Source of the DNA: a virus
Virus record (IMG/VR): IMGVR_UViG_3300025000_000270
Location: 1 to 35,900 of that record
Length of the DNA: 35,900 nt
Direction: 5' to 3' (one strand)
The position numbers and the translations under genes were made by a program. Position 1 is the first letter of the stretch. Each line of letters opens with the position of its first letter. This document shows, piece after piece, positions 3,265 through 32,970 of the stretch. The notes below the pieces were generated by a model. That model saw only the letters and a program-made list of their open reading frames with translations. It did not search any database and had not been told where the DNA came from.

Positions 3265-3274
3265 AAAATAATCC

Positions 3275-3330
3275 CAGAACTTGGGAAGCAATAGTTTTAA
3301 TGGATTATTTCTATTGTTTCTCAAATTCTG
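3275..3330 (+). other. Long intergenic stem-loop after the recombination genes
   Basis: Arms 3275-3294 (starting CAGAACTTGG) and 3311-3330 (ending AAATTCTG) pair over 20 positions with two G-U wobbles and one C-A mismatch. The loop is 16 nt. The element fills the whole gap between the NinB-like gene and the next ATG. There is no T-run after it, so it is not a standard intrinsic terminator. An mRNA-processing, stabilising or attenuating role is possible. Confidence 0.7.
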
Positions 3331-4554: not shown

Positions 4555-4760
4555 AAGAAATAAAACAAATAGCATACCCTAATACAATTGCATCTAACGA
4601 ACAGTCATTTTTTACAGTAGGTTCTAATTGCGATAGAATAGAAGAAGTCTTTAAGAGCGGAGAGATGGCGAGCATAACATGGTTCGCTGTTATAAAAAGT
4701 GAAAATGTAATTGCGGAAATAAAAGAAAGTGTTTGTGATATTTACTATAAATCAGTTTGA
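4551..4760 (+). CDS. Hypothetical 69-aa protein
   Basis: 69 aa, unrecognised. It contains a beta-rich stretch (MASITWFAVIKSENVIAEI) and two cysteines. It begins MKEIKQIAYP, while the gene 28 bases downstream begins MKEIYHEYEP, and the DNA before both starts is also similar, which suggests local duplication. Confidence 0.55.
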   Translation: MKEIKQIAYPNTIASNEQSFFTVGSNCDRIEEVFKSGEMASITWFAVIKSENVIAEIKESVCDIYYKSV

Positions 4761-4787
4761 ACAGGCAGTTAAAGACTTAAAGAAAAT

Positions 4788-4982
4788 ATGAAAGAAATAT
4801 ACCACGAATACGAACCACTAATAACATGCCCCCACTGCGGACGGAAAGAAGAAGATAGTTGGGAAGTAAATGACGATAATGGTGAAATGGAATGTGGAGA
4901 GTGTGATAAGAAGTTTTCTTATGAAAGAATTGTCGATGTAACATATACGACAAGGAAGATAGAAGAGACGCAAACAGAATAA
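4788..4982 (+). CDS. Small zinc-ribbon protein
   Basis: 64 aa. CPHCGRKEEDSWEV followed by MECGECDKKFSYE gives two C-x2-C knuckles about 20 residues apart, a classic zinc ribbon. The rest is acidic. It is the last gene before the structured RNA at 4997. Phage proteins of this type are common and uncharacterised. Confidence 0.75.
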   Translation: MKEIYHEYEPLITCPHCGRKEEDSWEVNDDNGEMECGECDKKFSYERIVDVTYTTRKIEETQTE

Positions 4983-4996
4983 CCTAACAAACACTC

Positions 4997-5139
4997 CATT
5001 GTCGGTTTAAAGGAGGGGATGTGGTGGACAGTGAGCCACTCCAGTGTTAAGCCAGATACACGTACTGGCAGACCATAGAAATGTGGGCTGGGACGTAATG
5101 CAAGTCAAATCCTTGCTCCCCTCCTCTAAGCCGATAATG
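4997..5139 (+). ncRNA. Large structured RNA with a tRNA-like cloverleaf core
   Basis: The 168-bp gap between genes is almost filled by one folding element. Bases 4997-5019 pair with 5117-5139 over 23 positions (20 Watson-Crick, two G-U, one A-C), which implies selection for pairing and not for an exact palindrome. Inside are GTGG/CCAC (5021-5024 with 5036-5039), CCAGT/ACTGG (5041-5045 with 5064-5068), CAGACCA/TGGGCTG (5069-5075 with 5084-5090, one mismatch) and GCAAG-TCAAATC-CTTGC (5100-5116). The last is a five-pair stem with a seven-base loop next to the closing stem, in the place of a tRNA T-arm. The 18-base third loop and the long fourth arm do not fit a normal tRNA. I see no clear promoter or terminator. 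Confidence 0.75.
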
Positions 5140-5150
5140 TAATAAAAGAT

Positions 5151-5339
5151 ATGCAAAATTTATTTTTCTACAACCCAGATTTCTTGCTTGATTATCCAAG
5201 GTATTGCTTTGAACATCTTCCCGATGAGATTGATAGGCTTAAACAGCAAGGGAGAAGTGGTGTTGAGGCTATTATTGCTGCAAATCAATACCGTTACAGA
5301 GTAATATCAGAATCAGATAATGGAATAAAACAACTATGA
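5151..5339 (+). CDS. Hypothetical 62-aa protein
   Basis: 62 aa, unrecognised. It has aromatic-rich text (LFFYNPDFLLDYPRYCFEHL) followed by a helix with RLKQQGRSGVEAIIAANQYR. It starts 12 bases after the closing stem of the 4997-5139 RNA, so that RNA could act as its 5' leader. The start has no Shine-Dalgarno. Confidence 0.55.
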   Translation: MQNLFFYNPDFLLDYPRYCFEHLPDEIDRLKQQGRSGVEAIIAANQYRYRVISESDNGIKQL

Positions 5340-5350
5340 ATGAAGAAACA

Positions 5351-5379
5351 TTGATTGATAGTTAAAAATACTATATAAT
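5351..5379 (+). promoter_or_regulatory. Sigma-70-type promoter for the HNH gene
   Basis: TTGATT (5351-5356), a 17-base spacer and TATAAT (5374-5379). The expected start of transcription is about 5386, a few bases before the pseudoknot that begins at 5390. Confidence 0.75.
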
Positions 5380-5389
5380 TAAAGCATAT

Positions 5390-5456
5390 TAACCTTACGC
5401 ATAGACCCCAGATAGGTAGCATTTACTCGTAAGGTTAGGCTACTTTTCTGGGGTTT
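5390..5456 (+). ncRNA. 5'-terminal pseudoknot leader of the first HNH gene
   Basis: Three stems interleave. Stem a: TAACCTTACG (5390-5399) with CGTAAGGTTA (5428-5437). Stem b: ACCCCAGA (5405-5412) with TCTGGGGT (5447-5454). Stem c: GTAGC (5416-5420) with GCTAC (5439-5443). The order a b c a' c' b' makes stem a cross stems b and c, an H-type pseudoknot. It starts about four bases after the predicted +1 and ends 14 bases before an ATG with no Shine-Dalgarno. The same plan with different bases precedes the HNH gene at 30679. Confidence 0.8.
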
Positions 5457-5468
5457 GTGAATTAAAAA

Positions 5469-5951
5469 ATGGATAAGAGAAAGTATAGCAGGCATGATAT
5501 GAATGGGGCACGGTTTCATCAGATATGGGATAATATGAAACAAAGGTGTAGTAATAAGAACAACGATAGATACAGAGTGTATGGTGGCAGAGGTATAAGC
5601 GTTTCAGAAAGATGGTTAGACTTCCTGCGGTTTAAAGAAGATATGTATCAAGAATACTTGGAACATTCAGAGGTCCATGGAGAAAAAAATACCACAATAG
5701 ACCGTATAAATAATAATCTTGGGTACTATAAAGAGAATTGCAGATGGGCAACAAGAAAATTACAAGCAATGAATCAAAGAAACACGATACTTTATAAGGG
5801 AGAGTCTGCAAGAGAGGCAAGTATCAGGTTAGGGAGTAATGAAAGCATTGTAAACCAAAGAATAAAATTAGGATGGAGTTTGGAAAAAGCATTTACTACG
5901 CCAGTCATGAAACAATTTACACATATCGGTAGATATGTACCAAAAAAATGA
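5469..5951 (+). CDS. HNH homing endonuclease (HNH/AP2-like type)
   Basis: 160 aa. The order MKQRCSNKNNDRYRVYGGRG, then ERWLDFLRFKEDM, then IDRINNNLGYYKENCRWAT is the hallmark of the free-standing phage HNH proteins annotated as HNH or AP2-domain endonucleases, and the C-terminal part (SAREASIRLGSNESIVNQR) is a helix-turn-helix that helps target DNA. Such genes spread by cutting genomes that lack them. Length is full for the family. It has its own promoter and pseudoknot leader, unlike its operon-borne neighbours, and overlaps the next gene by four bases. Confidence 0.9.
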   Translation: MDKRKYSRHDMNGARFHQIWDNMKQRCSNKNNDRYRVYGGRGISVSERWLDFLRFKEDMYQEYLEHSEVHGEKNTTIDRINNNLGYYKENCRWATRKLQAMNQRNTILYKGESAREASIRLGSNESIVNQRIKLGWSLEKAFTTPVMKQFTHIGRYVPKK

Positions 5952-6285: not shown

Positions 6286-7440
6286 ATGCGGATACATAAG
6301 GCTATAAAATTAAAACTATACCCAAATAAAGAACAGGAAAAGCATTTGATTGAAACGATAAATGCTTGTAGATTTGTATGGAATTATTATCTTGCAAAGA
6401 GAAAGGAAGAATATCTTAATGGGAATAAGTCTTTTAACTATTATAAGTGTGCAAAAGATCTAACGATTCTAAAGAAGTCAGATGATTTTAAGTGGATTAG
6501 TAATTCTCAAATACACCCATTACAGCAGTCATTAAGAAATCTTGATATTGCATACACTCGATTCTTTAAGAAGAAATCAAAATATCCAATATTTAAGAGC
6601 AAAAATGATCCTATAAAATCATTCCAGAAGCCTCGTGATTGGAAGATTATCGGAAATAAAATTCAAATAGAGAAATGGGTTGCTATTAGATTTAGAGGTA
6701 CACTACCAAGTAGTGAATGCAAATTAGGAGCAATTACTGTGGTTAGCCAAAATGGAAAATGGTACGCATCTATAAAATATACAGAAGATGTCACAGTAAA
6801 AAAGAAAGCTGGAAATCCGATCGGTATAGATATGGGGCTTACGCATTTAGCGATAACAAGTGAGGGAGATAAATATGTCAATATTAGAAGTTTCAGAAAG
6901 AGCGAAAAGAAATTGGCAGAAGCACAGAGAGTGCTATCAAGAAAAACAAAAGGAAGCAGCCGAAGGAATAAACAAAAGGTCGTCGTGGCAACAATCCACG
7001 AAAAGATAAAGAACAGAAGGATAAACCATCTTCATCAGACGAGCCATCGCATTACGAGCGAAAACCAAGCAGTAATCGTATGTGAGGATCTTGCAGTAAA
7101 GAATATGCTCAAAAACAGGAAACTGTCTAAGGCAATTTCAGACGCAGGGTGGGGAGAGTTTTTAAGACAATTAGAATACAAGCAAATTTGGAGAGGTGGG
7201 GAATTTGTCAAAGTAGATAGATTTTTCCCGTCATCAAAGACCTGTTCTAATTGCAATCACATTGTTGAGAAATTACCGTTAAACATCCGAGAATGGACTT
7301 GCCCGAAATGCGAGGCAATCCACGATCGGGACGTAAATGCGGCTAAGATGATTCTCAAACAAGGGCTAAGGAATAGCCGATACGCAGAGGATAGTAAGAC
7401 CAAGCGCAAGCGAGGCAAATCCGTTGAAGCGCGAAGATAA
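6286..7440 (+). CDS. tnpB: TnpB (OrfB) RNA-guided nuclease of the IS200/IS605 group
   Basis: 384 aa, full length and apparently active. The N-terminal wedge part begins KAIKLKLYPNKEQEKHL with RFVWNYYLAKR. The RuvC triad is D182 (IGIDMGLTHLAI), E267 (VIVCEDLAV) and D349 (HDRDVNAA). The zinc ribbon is C320-x2-C323 and C339-x2-C342. No TnpA lies nearby, so the gene is either a solitary element moved in trans or has been adopted by the phage. TnpB guide RNAs come from the gene's 3' end. Here that region holds GGCTA-AGGAA-TAGCC (a hairpin near 7363-7381) and GCGC/GCGC pairs near the stop, so an omega RNA is plausible but its end is not visible. Confidence 0.95.
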   Translation: MRIHKAIKLKLYPNKEQEKHLIETINACRFVWNYYLAKRKEEYLNGNKSFNYYKCAKDLTILKKSDDFKWISNSQIHPLQQSLRNLDIAYTRFFKKKSKYPIFKSKNDPIKSFQKPRDWKIIGNKIQIEKWVAIRFRGTLPSSECKLGAITVVSQNGKWYASIKYTEDVTVKKKAGNPIGIDMGLTHLAITSEGDKYVNIRSFRKSEKKLAEAQRVLSRKTKGSSRRNKQKVVVATIHEKIKNRRINHLHQTSHRITSENQAVIVCEDLAVKNMLKNRKLSKAISDAGWGEFLRQLEYKQIWRGGEFVKVDRFFPSSKTCSNCNHIVEKLPLNIREWTCPKCEAIHDRDVNAAKMILKQGLRNSRYAEDSKTKRKRGKSVEARR

Positions 7441-30366: not shown

Positions 30367-30585
30367 AGTAGCATGTCAATCCAAATTAAATATCGAGCGG
30401 AACCTAACCGGCCACGATAACGCCGCGCACCTTATGAAGTGAAAGTCGACCTTTCTGTTTCAATCCTCACGATATGCGAGTGAACAATCTCGATATTTAA
30501 TTTGGGCAGAGATACCCACGCATCACGCAAGAAATACTTAACAGTATTTGATACAAAATTACTTGACTCACGTCAAGTTTTTTTG
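30367..30585 (+). ncRNA. Candidate stand-alone structured RNA gene
   Basis: The interval has no credible ORF but a promoter-like start and a terminator-like end (30561-30585). Its main structure is a perfect 17-pair stem, 30381-30397 with 30489-30505 (CCAAATTAAATATCGAG and its complement). Inside are CGGC/GCCG (about 30409-30424), GAAAG/CTTTC around TCGAC, and TCAC/GTGA. AAATACT/AGTATTT (30532-30538 with 30543-30549) adds a hairpin downstream. The inner bases are more GC-rich than the surroundings. A DNA-level origin or cruciform role is an alternative. Confidence 0.6.
30561..30584 (+). terminator. Terminator-like repeat overlapping the next promoter
   Basis: ACTTGAC (30561-30567), loop TCAC, GTCAAGT (30572-30578), then TTTTTTT. 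It could end the 30367 RNA. It also covers the -35 box TTGACT (30563-30568), so it may act as an operator instead. Confidence 0.6.
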
Positions 30586-30592
30586 TTATAAT
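30563..30592 (+). promoter_or_regulatory. Promoter of the second HNH gene
   Basis: TTGACT (30563-30568), 18 bases, TATAAT (30587-30592). The start is expected near 30599, two bases before the pseudoknot begins at 30601. The -35 lies within an inverted repeat. Confidence 0.8.
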
Positions 30593-30600
30593 ATTATTAA

Positions 30601-30663
30601 GTAACGACGATAAAAAGGGGTTTATTGGTATGGCTTCGTCGTTACACCAGTAGATCCCTTTTT
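30601..30663 (+). ncRNA. 5'-terminal pseudoknot leader of the second HNH gene
   Basis: Stem a: GTAACGACGA (30601-30610) with TCGTCGTTAC (30636-30645), ten perfect pairs. Stem b: AAAAAGGG (30612-30619) with CCCTTTTT (30656-30663). Stem c: TGGT (30626-30629) with ACCA (30646-30649), extendable by a G-U pair. The order a b c a' c' b' and stem lengths match the 5390-5456 leader, while the bases do not. It ends 15 bases before the ATG, which has no Shine-Dalgarno. Confidence 0.82.
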
Positions 30664-30678
30664 GTGTGCCATTTAAAA

Positions 30679-31140
30679 ATGATAATAGCAAAAGAAATAC
30701 CAAGTTTTGATAGAAATAAAGTTTTAAATAAAATCAAAAAAACAAATGGGTGCTGGTATTGGGAAGGTTTTATTAATGATGAAAGATATGGTTCAATTAC
30801 TATAAATAAGAAAAATTATCAAGCACATAGATTATGTTATGAATTATTTACTGGTAATAAAATACCTTTAGATATGTGCATAGATCATATATGCAGGAAT
30901 AGGTCATGTGTAAACCCACAACATTTAGAAATTGTTACAAACCAAGAAAATCTAAGAAGAGGTAACGGGGTTGCTGCAATCAATCGAAGAAAAACCCATT
31001 GTATCAGAAGGCATGAATTTAATAGTGGAAATACTGCATATTATTTTGATAAGACGAGAAACACAATAAGAAGAACTTGTATAGTTTGTAAAAGAGCAAG
31101 AGAAATAAAAGCAAGGAGATTAAAAAGAATGACAAAATAA
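30679..31140 (+). CDS. HNH homing endonuclease (HNH_3 type)
   Basis: 153 aa. The pattern CWYWEGFINDERYGS, then YQAHRLCYELFTGNKIP, then IDHICRNRSCVNPQHLEIVT and NLRRG is the HNH_3 form common in phages. The later part (HCIRRHEF, CIVCKRAREIKARR) adds zinc and basic DNA-binding features. It spreads by cutting target genomes. The ATG at 30679 is chosen. A TTG-initiated longer frame from 30625 is rejected because its extra 18 residues lie in the pseudoknot. This gene does not resemble the 5469 HNH protein in sequence. Confidence 0.9.
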   Translation: MIIAKEIPSFDRNKVLNKIKKTNGCWYWEGFINDERYGSITINKKNYQAHRLCYELFTGNKIPLDMCIDHICRNRSCVNPQHLEIVTNQENLRRGNGVAAINRRKTHCIRRHEFNSGNTAYYFDKTRNTIRRTCIVCKRAREIKARRLKRMTK

Positions 31141-31157: not shown

Positions 31158-31164
31158 ATATATA

Positions 31165-31307
31165 CCGATTGACTCCCAACAATCGGGATGCACCCCATGT
31201 ACCGCCGACAGTAGCAAATCCTATCTTCGGCGGACTATAGCGATGTAGAAGAAAAGAACTTCGCCAGTCTCATAAATTGGAGGAGCCGGAGCGTTACCGG
31301 CCATCGC
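31165..31307 (+). ncRNA. Highly structured leader of the 92-aa gene
   Basis: From the predicted start of transcription the leader folds in three parts. CCGATTG (31165-31171) pairs with CAATCGG (31180-31186). CCGCCGA (31202-31208) pairs with TCGGCGG (31227-31233). A cloverleaf fills 31240-31307. The loop of the first hairpin (CTCC, 31173-31176 region) can pair with GGAG at 31279-31283. The leader ends three bases before the ATG. The size resembles a riboswitch or translational control element, but I recognise no class. Confidence 0.75.
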
Positions 31308-31308
31308 A
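31240..31308 (+). other. tRNA-like cloverleaf with a CAT anticodon position
   Basis: GCGATG (31240-31245) pairs with CATCGC (31302-31307). A GAAG/CTTC arm (31248-31251 with 31259-31262), a CCAGT/ATTGG arm (31264-31268 with 31276-31280) with a CTCATAA loop, a four-base variable part and a GCCGG/CCGGC arm (31285-31289 with 31297-31301) with a seven-base loop follow in tRNA order and spacing. CTCATAA is the normal methionine anticodon loop. However, the D-loop lacks GG, the T-loop (AGCGTTA) lacks TTC, and the acceptor has six pairs, so it is probably a mimic or a decayed tRNA. Confidence 0.6.
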
Positions 31309-31310
31309 AC

Positions 31311-31589
31311 ATGAAAAAAATCCAAGAAGAAAAAGTAAAAGTACGTCACATAAATAAATACCCCTGCAAGAGAAACAAGGGCAACCACGAATGGGATATT
31401 CCACTCGTGAAAGACGATGGAGCATATATCCGATACTTGTATAAACTTCCCGAGAAACGAACCCTAGATTCGGGGGAACCGACTCATAGGGGAATGAAGT
31501 ATGACGAAGCATATTTTCTCGCCCATGTGGAAGTGAGGTGTATGTGGTGCAATAAGAAGATTGTCAGAATTATTAAGGAAAAGATATAA
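31311..31589 (+). CDS. Hypothetical 92-aa protein
   Basis: 92 aa. Ends in an acid and aromatic part with AHVEVRCMWCNKKIVRIIKE, where C-x2-C suggests metal binding together with C19 (NKYPCKRNKGNHEW). It is the first gene of a small operon with a promoter and folded leader of its own. Not recognised. The unusual leader suggests that its production is controlled tightly. Confidence 0.65.
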   Translation: MKKIQEEKVKVRHINKYPCKRNKGNHEWDIPLVKDDGAYIRYLYKLPEKRTLDSGEPTHRGMKYDEAYFLAHVEVRCMWCNKKIVRIIKEKI

Positions 31590-31974: not shown

Positions 31975-32002
31975 TTGCAATTAAAATTAGACAGTTTATA
32001 CT
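31975..32002 (+). promoter_or_regulatory. Promoter of the initiator gene
   Basis: TTGCAA (31975-31980), 16 bases, TATACT (31997-32002). The expected +1 near 32009 is about six bases before the pseudoknot at 32015. Confidence 0.65.
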
Positions 32003-32014
32003 TAAAGTAAATTC

Positions 32015-32099
32015 ACCTTGCCGCTTTTTATGAGGCGAGCGGGTTGGGTATCTGGCAAGGTACTCCGCTCGCTTCGTAAAAGGCATATACCCAAATGCC
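32015..32099 (+). ncRNA. Double-pseudoknot leader of the replication initiator
   Basis: ACCTTGCC (32015-32022) pairs with GGCAAGGT (32054-32061). CTTTTTATGAGGCGAGCGG (32024-32042) pairs with 32065-32083 over 19 positions including three G-U pairs. The two stems cross as an H-type pseudoknot. TTGGGTAT (32044-32051), in the loop between them, is the exact complement of ATACCCAA (32087-32094), the loop of a GGCAT/ATGCC hairpin that follows (32082-32086 with 32095-32099). The last two bases of the long stem compete with that hairpin. The leader continues to the ATG at 32185. Confidence 0.85.
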
Positions 32100-32184
32100 A
32101 AAGACTTAATACAATATTGTAATCCAAAAAACCGAAACGAAACGGTTTATTTTCGTAATTAATCACCAGTAAGAAAAAGTAAAA

Positions 32185-32970
32185 ATGAATAAAGATACAG
32201 AAATACAAGACGACAGTGGGGACAAGAAATATTTTACTATCATCCCCAATTACATACTCAACCATTCAACGATGTATGACCGAGAGGTATATATCCAAAT
32301 GAAACGGATTACGGGAGAAAGTGGCACATGTTGGACTTCACAAAAGACGCTCGCAAAGCAATGTGGAATAAGTATAAATAGACTTAAGAAGTCTTTGAAA
32401 TATCTAGTAGACCATAAATGGATACGAAAGACCGGAACCAAAGAAGTCGTGACTAAAGGCGGTATTCAAGAAGTGCATGTTTATATAGTTGAAGACCTTT
32501 GGAAATTAAATGCTGACTTCTTTGAAAACAAGAAAGGGGTATCACACAATGATACACCTACCACTAAGGGGGTATCACGAAACGATCAAAGGGGTATCAC
32601 GGATGAATCCAAAGGGGTATCACCAGGTGACGACAAAGAAGAACAAGTTAAAGAAGAACCAATTAAGAATAAAGCGACTGAAGTCGCAGGAAAGGAAATA
32701 TCAGAAATTATATTTCTATTCAAAGATATAAACCCTTGTTACGAGGAATGGTACGGAAACAAAACCCAACGCGGAGCAATAAAGTGGCTTATAGATAAAT
32801 TCGGCTTCGAGGAAGTATCAAATATGGTTTCCGCTTTGCCAGCTATCAACGCTAAAGAGTTTGTAACTAAAAGTACTACCCCGTGGGAATTAAAGAAAAA
32901 CCTCGGAAAACTAAAAGCACACTTTAACCAGTCGAAGGCAAAGCCAAACAAATTAACAATCGCAATATGA
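32185..32970 (+). CDS. Replication initiator with internal origin iterons
   Basis: 261 aa. Residues 15-95 match the HTH_36-type fold of phage replisome organisers (FTIIPNYILNHSTMYDREVY, CWTSQKTLAKQCGISINRLK, LVDHKWIRKTG). Residues 118-147 are a linker encoded by iterons and contain four GVS or GIT-type repeats. The C-terminal part (EWYGNKTQRGAIKWLIDKFG on) may bind a helicase or loader. This is the domain plan of the lambda O protein. No partner helicase loader gene is recognised, so the host enzyme may be used directly. Confidence 0.85.
   Translation: MNKDTEIQDDSGDKKYFTIIPNYILNHSTMYDREVYIQMKRITGESGTCWTSQKTLAKQCGISINRLKKSLKYLVDHKWIRKTGTKEVVTKGGIQEVHVYIVEDLWKLNADFFENKKGVSHNDTPTTKGVSRNDQRGITDESKGVSPGDDKEEQVKEEPIKNKATEVAGKEISEIIFLFKDINPCYEEWYGNKTQRGAIKWLIDKFGFEEVSNMVSALPAINAKEFVTKSTTPWELKKNLGKLKAHFNQSKAKPNKLTIAI
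32536..32623. repeat. Four iterons forming a lambda-like origin
   Basis: GGGGTATCAC occurs exactly at 32536-32545, 32569-32578, 32591-32600 and 32614-32623. Start-to-start spacing is 33, 22 and 23 bp, close to whole helical turns, so the sites lie on one DNA face. An inverted near-copy TGATACACC sits at 32550-32558. They are inside the initiator gene, as in lambda, and probably are the binding sites of the protein it encodes. Confidence 0.88.

Follow-up and report, generated by a model that had tools for sequence, protein, structure and literature searches.

The leader of the replication initiator gene rep, the leaders of two HNH endonuclease genes in the same genome and their relatives in other phages seem to form a class of RNA control element that has not been described before. 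That the class is a real RNA is very probable, and far surer than any mechanism at the rep-leader site. Computation directly shows its pairings and how they recur, the compensatory changes seen in a related family, ends that resemble terminators and which kinds of gene follow. The best reading, to which we give a probability of roughly 0.45, is a cis-acting, co-transcriptional folding switch (an attenuator) that tunes initiator expression. We tentatively suggest that this is a widespread class of phage leaders, so far undescribed, in which pairing of the transcript 5′ end with the loop of a terminator hairpin acts as a sequence-independent timer for initiators of unrelated families.

The window (the whole stretch of 35,900 nt that was analyzed) is a virus record that carries a direct terminal repeat of 126 nt. 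The rep leader and its surroundings contain the following features.

31975..32002, plus strand: putative sigma-70 promoter, TTGCAA-16 nt-TATACT (weak, 9/12 matches)
32015..32022, plus strand: 5′ strand of P1, ACCTTGCC, the exact complement of 32054-32061
32023..32043, plus strand: 5′ strand of P2, the apical portion of which serves as P3
32044..32051, plus strand: loop TTGGGTAT, the exact 8-nt complement of 32087-32094
32054..32061, plus strand: 3′ strand of P1 (P1′), GGCAAGGT, inside the P2 hairpin loop, forming 8 pairs with ACCTTGCC
32064..32084, plus strand: 3′ strand of P2 (P2′), pairing with 32023-32043
32082..32099, plus strand: 3′ hairpin GGCAT-ATACCCAA-ATGCC, with arms 32082-32086/32095-32099 (-6.4 kcal/mol alone)
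32030..32122, plus strand: putative small ORF through the structure, MRRAGWVSGKVLRSLRKRHIPKCQRLNTIL, starting inside P2
32129..32148, plus strand: terminator-like hairpin, then ATTTTCG, between the leader and rep (weak, a consensus match only)
32185..32970, plus strand: replication initiator gene rep (HTH_36; PHROG replication initiation / DnaD-like helicase loader)

The first-pass annotation described an eight-pair stem crossing a long stem, and a loop exactly complementary to the loop of the next hairpin. Both are present: P1 is exact over all 8 pairs (32015-32022/32054-32061), and TTGGGTAT matches ATACCCAA at 32087-32094, the loop of the 3′ hairpin. The long stem is there too, but the count of 19 pairs with three G-U is revised to 21 uninterrupted pairs, 17 of them Watson-Crick and 4 G-U. 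The linkers between P1 and P2 are 0 nt on one side (the outer P2 end) and 2 nt on the other (the inner end). The rep leader has the class layout, with P1 near the predicted +1, P1′ in the P2 loop and the 2-nt gap, and its P1 shares TTCACCTTGC with a leader that precedes an HNH gene in another phage (L040). TATACT, the -10-like element, ends at 32002, which puts the predicted +1 near 32009 and P1 12 nt past the -10. The placement of the element at the start of the initiator mRNA, about 6 nt after the predicted +1, is upheld with this 9/12 promoter, in a region where promoter-like sites occur near chance density.

The crossing stems were scanned for over the whole window, on both strands and with a single scoring rule. 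The best crossing pair on either strand is the rep leader itself (32015-32084, score 67.5), and the next two independent matches are the HNH leaders (64 at 30601 and 53.5 at 5389), which agrees with the shared layout noted earlier. The null consisted of 200 dinucleotide shuffles of the whole window in 1-kb blocks; none scored above the maximum of 55, and 1% reached 53.5. A further crossing stem at 3266-3324 (score 49) was set aside as within chance (7.5% of shuffles) and without a clear promoter. Given the P2 hairpin, the chance that an 8-nt stretch in the 30 nt upstream finds its complement in the loop is 0.006-0.008 for the rep leader; the chance of P1 is 0.0005-0.002 in leader B and 0.001-0.0015 in leader A. 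The argument that so many complementary segments are unlikely by chance therefore holds for P1 crossed with P2 and is weaker for the loop-loop match, for which chance alone gives about 0.02-0.03. We give hardly any credence to the reading in which the complementarity at this site is functionless chance. The loop-loop probability would fit it, as would an energy model that favors a plain hairpin and a leader without a homolog, but none of the 200 shuffles reached the crossing score of the rep leader, and the same layout occurs in two further leaders of the genome and in other phages.

The minimum-energy fold of the rep leader is a single extended hairpin (-41.3 kcal/mol, z -5.9), in which an inner 7-bp helix takes up P1′ and most of the loop. 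The separate helices have energies of -11.4 (P1) and -33.5 (P2) kcal/mol. When the growing transcript was folded with nested structures, the P1 pair probability was 0.47 and then 0, and P1 faces a competing local hairpin; the folding programs forbid pseudoknots, and the order of P1 then P2 is partly built into these results. On geometric grounds, linkers as short as 0 and 2 nt do not let an 8-bp P1 bridge a 21-bp P2, and GGC at 32082-32084 is needed by two helices, P2 and the 3′ hairpin, which have these three bases in common. All helices of the rep leader are probably not formed at once. As a static structure, the double pseudoknot first proposed is not supported, given the shared GGC, the 0- and 2-nt linkers and the preference of the energy models for one long hairpin. 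The long hairpin is likely the end state, with P1 at best transient or regulated.

The two HNH leaders are as follows.

5351..5459, plus strand: leader A of an HNH gene, promoter TTGATT-17-TATAAT, fold z -6.4; helices P1 TAACCTTACG/CGTAAGGTTA, P2 CATAGACCCCAGA/TCTGGGGTTTGTG and P3 GTAGC/GCTAC
5469..5951, plus strand: HNH endonuclease gene 3′ of leader A (phrog_3377, 1.5e-41)
30563..30665, plus strand: leader B of an HNH gene, promoter TTGACT-18-TATAAT, fold z -6.3; helices P1 GTAACGACGA/TCGTCGTTAC and P2/P3 ATAAAAAGGGGTTTATTGGT/ACCAGTAGATCCCTTTTTGT, then terminator-like TTTTT
30679..31140, plus strand: HNH endonuclease gene 3′ of leader B (HNH_3, 1.6e-14)

At leader B, the HNH frame runs open from a TTG within the leader (30625) into the gene, so part of this leader might be translated. 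An element specific to HNH genes was considered and rejected. We tested 78 upstream regions (76 other HNH genes and 2 Lin1244-type genes), and one, L230, scores at least 50; L190 and L219, both before HNH genes, have a recognizable leader despite scores below 50. Most HNH relatives of the gene behind leader A are without a leader, so the element is not part of an HNH unit.

A search with the window's terminase found 80 contigs; against genomes it matched one metagenome-assembled genome, from which no host was obtained. The relatives were scanned both with promoter-anchored and with free crossing-stem scans, including whole records. The common order is promoter, P1-P2-(P3)-loop-P1′-(P3′)-P2′, start codon, with P3′ within a few nt after P1′ and P3 absent or fused with P2 in some leaders; in most members P2 ends 10-25 nt ahead of the start codon. 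Such leaders precede Lin1244_N initiators (L034, L050), a DnaD-like loader gene (L013), a Phage_rep_O gene (L090), a C5 methylase gene (L128) and an HNH gene (L040), and the VapE/BT4734 primase group carries the same layout. With the VapE primase as query, the cultured Cellulophaga phage phi38:2 was also reached; its leader stands before gp62, which PHROG assigns as a topoisomerase. Further cases from later searches were L190, L219, L230 (all HNH), L264 and L265 (both Lin1244-type) and L270. The last was the one further clear case from a search with an ACCTTRCS-type pattern: at 4754-4850, GAAACCTTAC/GTAAGGTTTC crosses CAGCCCACT/AGTGGGCTG, and a 24-codon ORF stops 3 nt before a gene of at least 129 codons.

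No recognizable leader was found before the initiator of L277, which is 32% identical to that of L034 and has an upstream stretch that resembles coding sequence, and the control phage FpV9 gave no convincing leader. In L052, the crossing pair ahead of the CHC2 primase (6020 onwards) lies in a frame open from an ATG at P1, so it may represent coding sequence or a leaderless mRNA. L018, L019, L036 and L052 carry little weight, as they may be ordinary terminators (or, for L052, coding). In the lambda control, crossing stems reach a score of 60 near cos and one of 51 directly before the holin gene S; a high score is therefore not diagnostic without support from position and conservation. The latter crossing pair (L280, 45116-45183) may be pseudoknotted, and lies where a stem-loop that governs the start of S is known.

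Conservation of the pairing is clearest in the VapE primase set, which comprises 42 upstream regions, 24 of them distinct, before genes whose proteins are 65-100% identical. These leaders keep the crossing pair, and P1 occurs in five versions (ACCGCCAA, ACCCGCCAA, GTTGCGGC, GTTGCGC and AGGGACG), each with its exact complement. In an alignment of the 15 best-aligned VapE leaders, 97.9% of cells are paired vs. 36-53% when the strands are slid. Five pairs in this alignment are changed on both sides, with covariation in P2/P3, and the covariation score (0.256 vs. a shuffle mean of 0.145) was reached in 0/500 shuffles. Because relatedness is kept in the shuffle control, more weight falls on the sliding control and the replaced helices. 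In the alignment, P1 has a matched insertion but no double substitution, and the evidence for its conservation comes from the wholesale replacements. Likewise, the Lin1244-type leaders L050, L264 and L265 all keep P1 crossed with P2 while their sequences differ (proteins about 37% identical to that of L050).

The G-U pairs in the VapE alignment argue for RNA. The inverted repeats adjoin replication genes and could belong to a DNA element (an origin, or sites for recombination or protein binding), but we regard this as very unlikely, given that the orientation is constant, after promoters and ahead of genes, that G-U pairs are tolerated in the helices (4 in P2 of the rep leader) and that HNH and methylase genes also have the layout. 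Among the rivals to a folding switch, it ranks after leader-peptide control, 5′-end protection and a trans-acting terminated RNA.

We infer the switch, its direction and its extension to the window's own copy as follows. P1 would form first, because P1′ is transcribed before P2′. With P1 paired, P3 would stack on P1 in an H-type pseudoknot and P2 would be left open, giving the ON state. Once P2′ is made, the P2/P3 hairpin would form, and versions with short linkers would then need P1 to be opened. This hairpin would represent the OFF state. It would serve most members as an intrinsic terminator immediately ahead of the gene, and may also cover the landing place of the ribosome. Whichever state wins would set the amount of initiator, primase or HNH mRNA made or translated. 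The encoded proteins are unrelated, so a general machine (RNA polymerase or the ribosome) is a likelier reader of the structure than the encoded protein, and autogenous binding by the latter is unlikely on the same grounds.

On geometric grounds, the linkers of 0-4 nt in the HNH-type and rep leaders would make P1 and full P2 exclude each other. In nested folding of 12 other leaders, P1 formed first in 11 with a pair probability of at least 0.87 (0.64 in L264), and P1 of the tested leaders was lost once P2′ emerged, in a model where coexistence is forbidden. The J1/2 linker of the VapE leaders is A-rich and 20-25 nt long, so that both helices could coexist there, and a static pseudoknot or a translational role is possible in that group. 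At least four T directly follow the P2′ core in 14/25 leaders (including leader B) vs. 3.1% of 3077 control hairpins, with the P2′ core ends set by eye, a choice that favors the count; the U-tracts of the VapE leaders are mostly weak.

The rep leader is an outlier of its class. Its P2′ has no U-tract and is not of intrinsic-terminator form, ATATACCC coming next, and the distance from the P2′ end to the rep ATG is about 100 nt (101). The weak terminator-like hairpin at 32129-32148 lies 45 nt beyond P2′. The Rep protein found no relatives among viral contigs and annotated phages, and the leader DNA matched none of the annotated phages; no homologous leader was found. The absent U-tract, the spacer, the weak P1 and the inner hairpin that competes with it all count against a switch at this particular leader. 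The earlier suggestion that the structure may control initiator synthesis gains from the recurrence of the layout, with other sequences, before initiators and primases, but is better framed with P1 and P2 as alternatives than in the static form.

Control by a leader peptide, in which a ribosome on a short ORF opens the structure and re-initiates at rep while P2 otherwise blocks ribosomes, is unlikely, yet it heads the rivals. ORFs with an ATG start no more than 15 nt from P1 and running beyond P1′ cross the knot in 7/26 leaders (3.0 expected, P ~0.02). Five of the six well-supported Rep-type leaders (the window's left out) carry such an ORF, four of these being Lin1244-type, a concentration that was noticed post hoc and is suggestive. 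Their stops lie 3-26 nt before the rep start or overlap it (ATGA in L013), and the position of the P2 end relative to the start codon in most members also fits. The window's copy has its own ORF (32030-32122), but this begins 15 nt into the element, within P2, and stops 62 nt short of rep; the coupling-like overlap of ORF and rep is seen in other phages only. The HNH and VapE leaders, moreover, have no such ATG ORF.

Protection of the mRNA is improbable as an alternative to the switch. Here the 5′ end would be locked in a hairpin loop against 5′-end-dependent nucleases and early phage mRNAs kept intact. P1 does begin a few nt from the predicted +1 in several leaders, the sequence varies freely while the pairing stays, and the controlled genes are unrelated, but P1 of L034 lies about 40 nt past the -10, and a stabilizer leaves the terminator form of P2′ and the zero-length linkers unexplained. 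We find it quite improbable that the terminated leader is a small RNA acting in trans on nascent leaders, with copy-number-like feedback. A promoter and a terminator-form hairpin would give a stable RNA of 60-110 nt, the strands of the inverted repeats are complementary between molecules, and the P4 CI RNA and IsrK are precedents (PMC4825925). Nevertheless, a separate target site was not found, and the window's copy is without a terminator at P2′.

Several known systems invite comparison with the proposed switch. The leaders of plasmid rep genes (IncI-alpha ColIb-P9 repY-repZ, IncB, IncL/M) combine a pseudoknot with a leader peptide, and the pseudoknot activates translation. As in these plasmids, a structured leader with a pseudoknot stands before an initiator gene (here HTH_36 and replication initiation PHROGs), and several class members have a short ORF ending at the initiator start. 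Unlike in the plasmid leaders, P2′ mostly resembles a terminator, HNH, methylase and topoisomerase genes are also among those that the class precedes, and no antisense RNA or target loop was found. The analogy with plasmid Rep control drawn earlier is a fair one as far as the ORFs of five of six Rep-type leaders go. No antisense RNA, sequestration of the ribosome-binding site or plasmid-type target motif was found. A consensus scan of the minus strand, which is a weak method, gave no close promoter reading into 32015-32099 and one 9/12 match at 32399.

In T4, the mRNA of the replication gene 32 has a leader pseudoknot close to its 5′ end, through which the encoded ssDNA-binding protein represses its own synthesis. 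The position and the kind of mRNA are alike, whereas the members of the present class encode unrelated protein families. In the preQ1, fluoride, ZTP and SAM-II riboswitches, pseudoknot and terminator are alternative states, and the ligand-binding nucleotides are conserved. Our class has the same pair of alternatives but keeps the pairing while the sequence changes wholly, and its genes are not metabolic. The helix orders of HDV-like, twister and other ribozymes differ from that of the class, and a self-cleaving ribozyme or known riboswitch was rejected on this order and on the Rfam result. Rfam covariance models at the gathering score gave 0 matches in the window and seven related loci, and a permissive Rfam search gave only chance microRNA matches.

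Phage leaders offer a second set of comparisons. P4 seqA/CI RNA and Gifsy-1 IsrK are leaders running from promoter to gene, with premature termination, alternative pairings and a short terminated RNA (PMC4825925). They are alike in lying between a promoter and replication or antirepressor genes (PMC4825925), but they are trans-acting RNAs with other folds, and the class has no Rfam match. The put RNA of HK022 is a nascent RNA of about 70 nt after an early phage promoter, with a cis effect on transcription (PMC9378689). Unlike the class, in which the stems cross and end terminator-like, put consists of two nested stem-loops that suppress distant downstream termination. By analogy, the element may somewhat resemble the plasmid rep, P4/IsrK and put systems; membership in any of them is not shown.

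We place the element among the structured leaders that control phage early genes. Searches for regulatory RNAs usually rely on sequence conservation. This class keeps only topology and helix adjacency, and ordinary searches and nested-structure programs therefore miss it. If the switch is real, the replication initiators of many uncultured phages would share one RNA-level control, and HNH genes may have borrowed leader control. The class also suggests concretely how replication might be timed in such phages.

Other sites in the window are also structured. The stretch 4992-5140 is strongly so (-64.8 kcal/mol, z -5.8), with a long closing stem and a small ORF downstream at 5151, and is possibly another leader or a non-coding RNA. 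The stretch 31160-31308 (z -3.6) lies directly before a 92-aa ORF at 31311 and has a fold unlike that of the crossing leaders. Upstream of leader B, at 30381-30505, a 17-nt perfect inverted repeat, CCAAATTAAATATCGAG, surrounds 91 nt (z -3.3). The 384-aa ORF at 6286-7440 resembles, as judged by eye, a lone TnpB-type (IS605 OrfB) protein.
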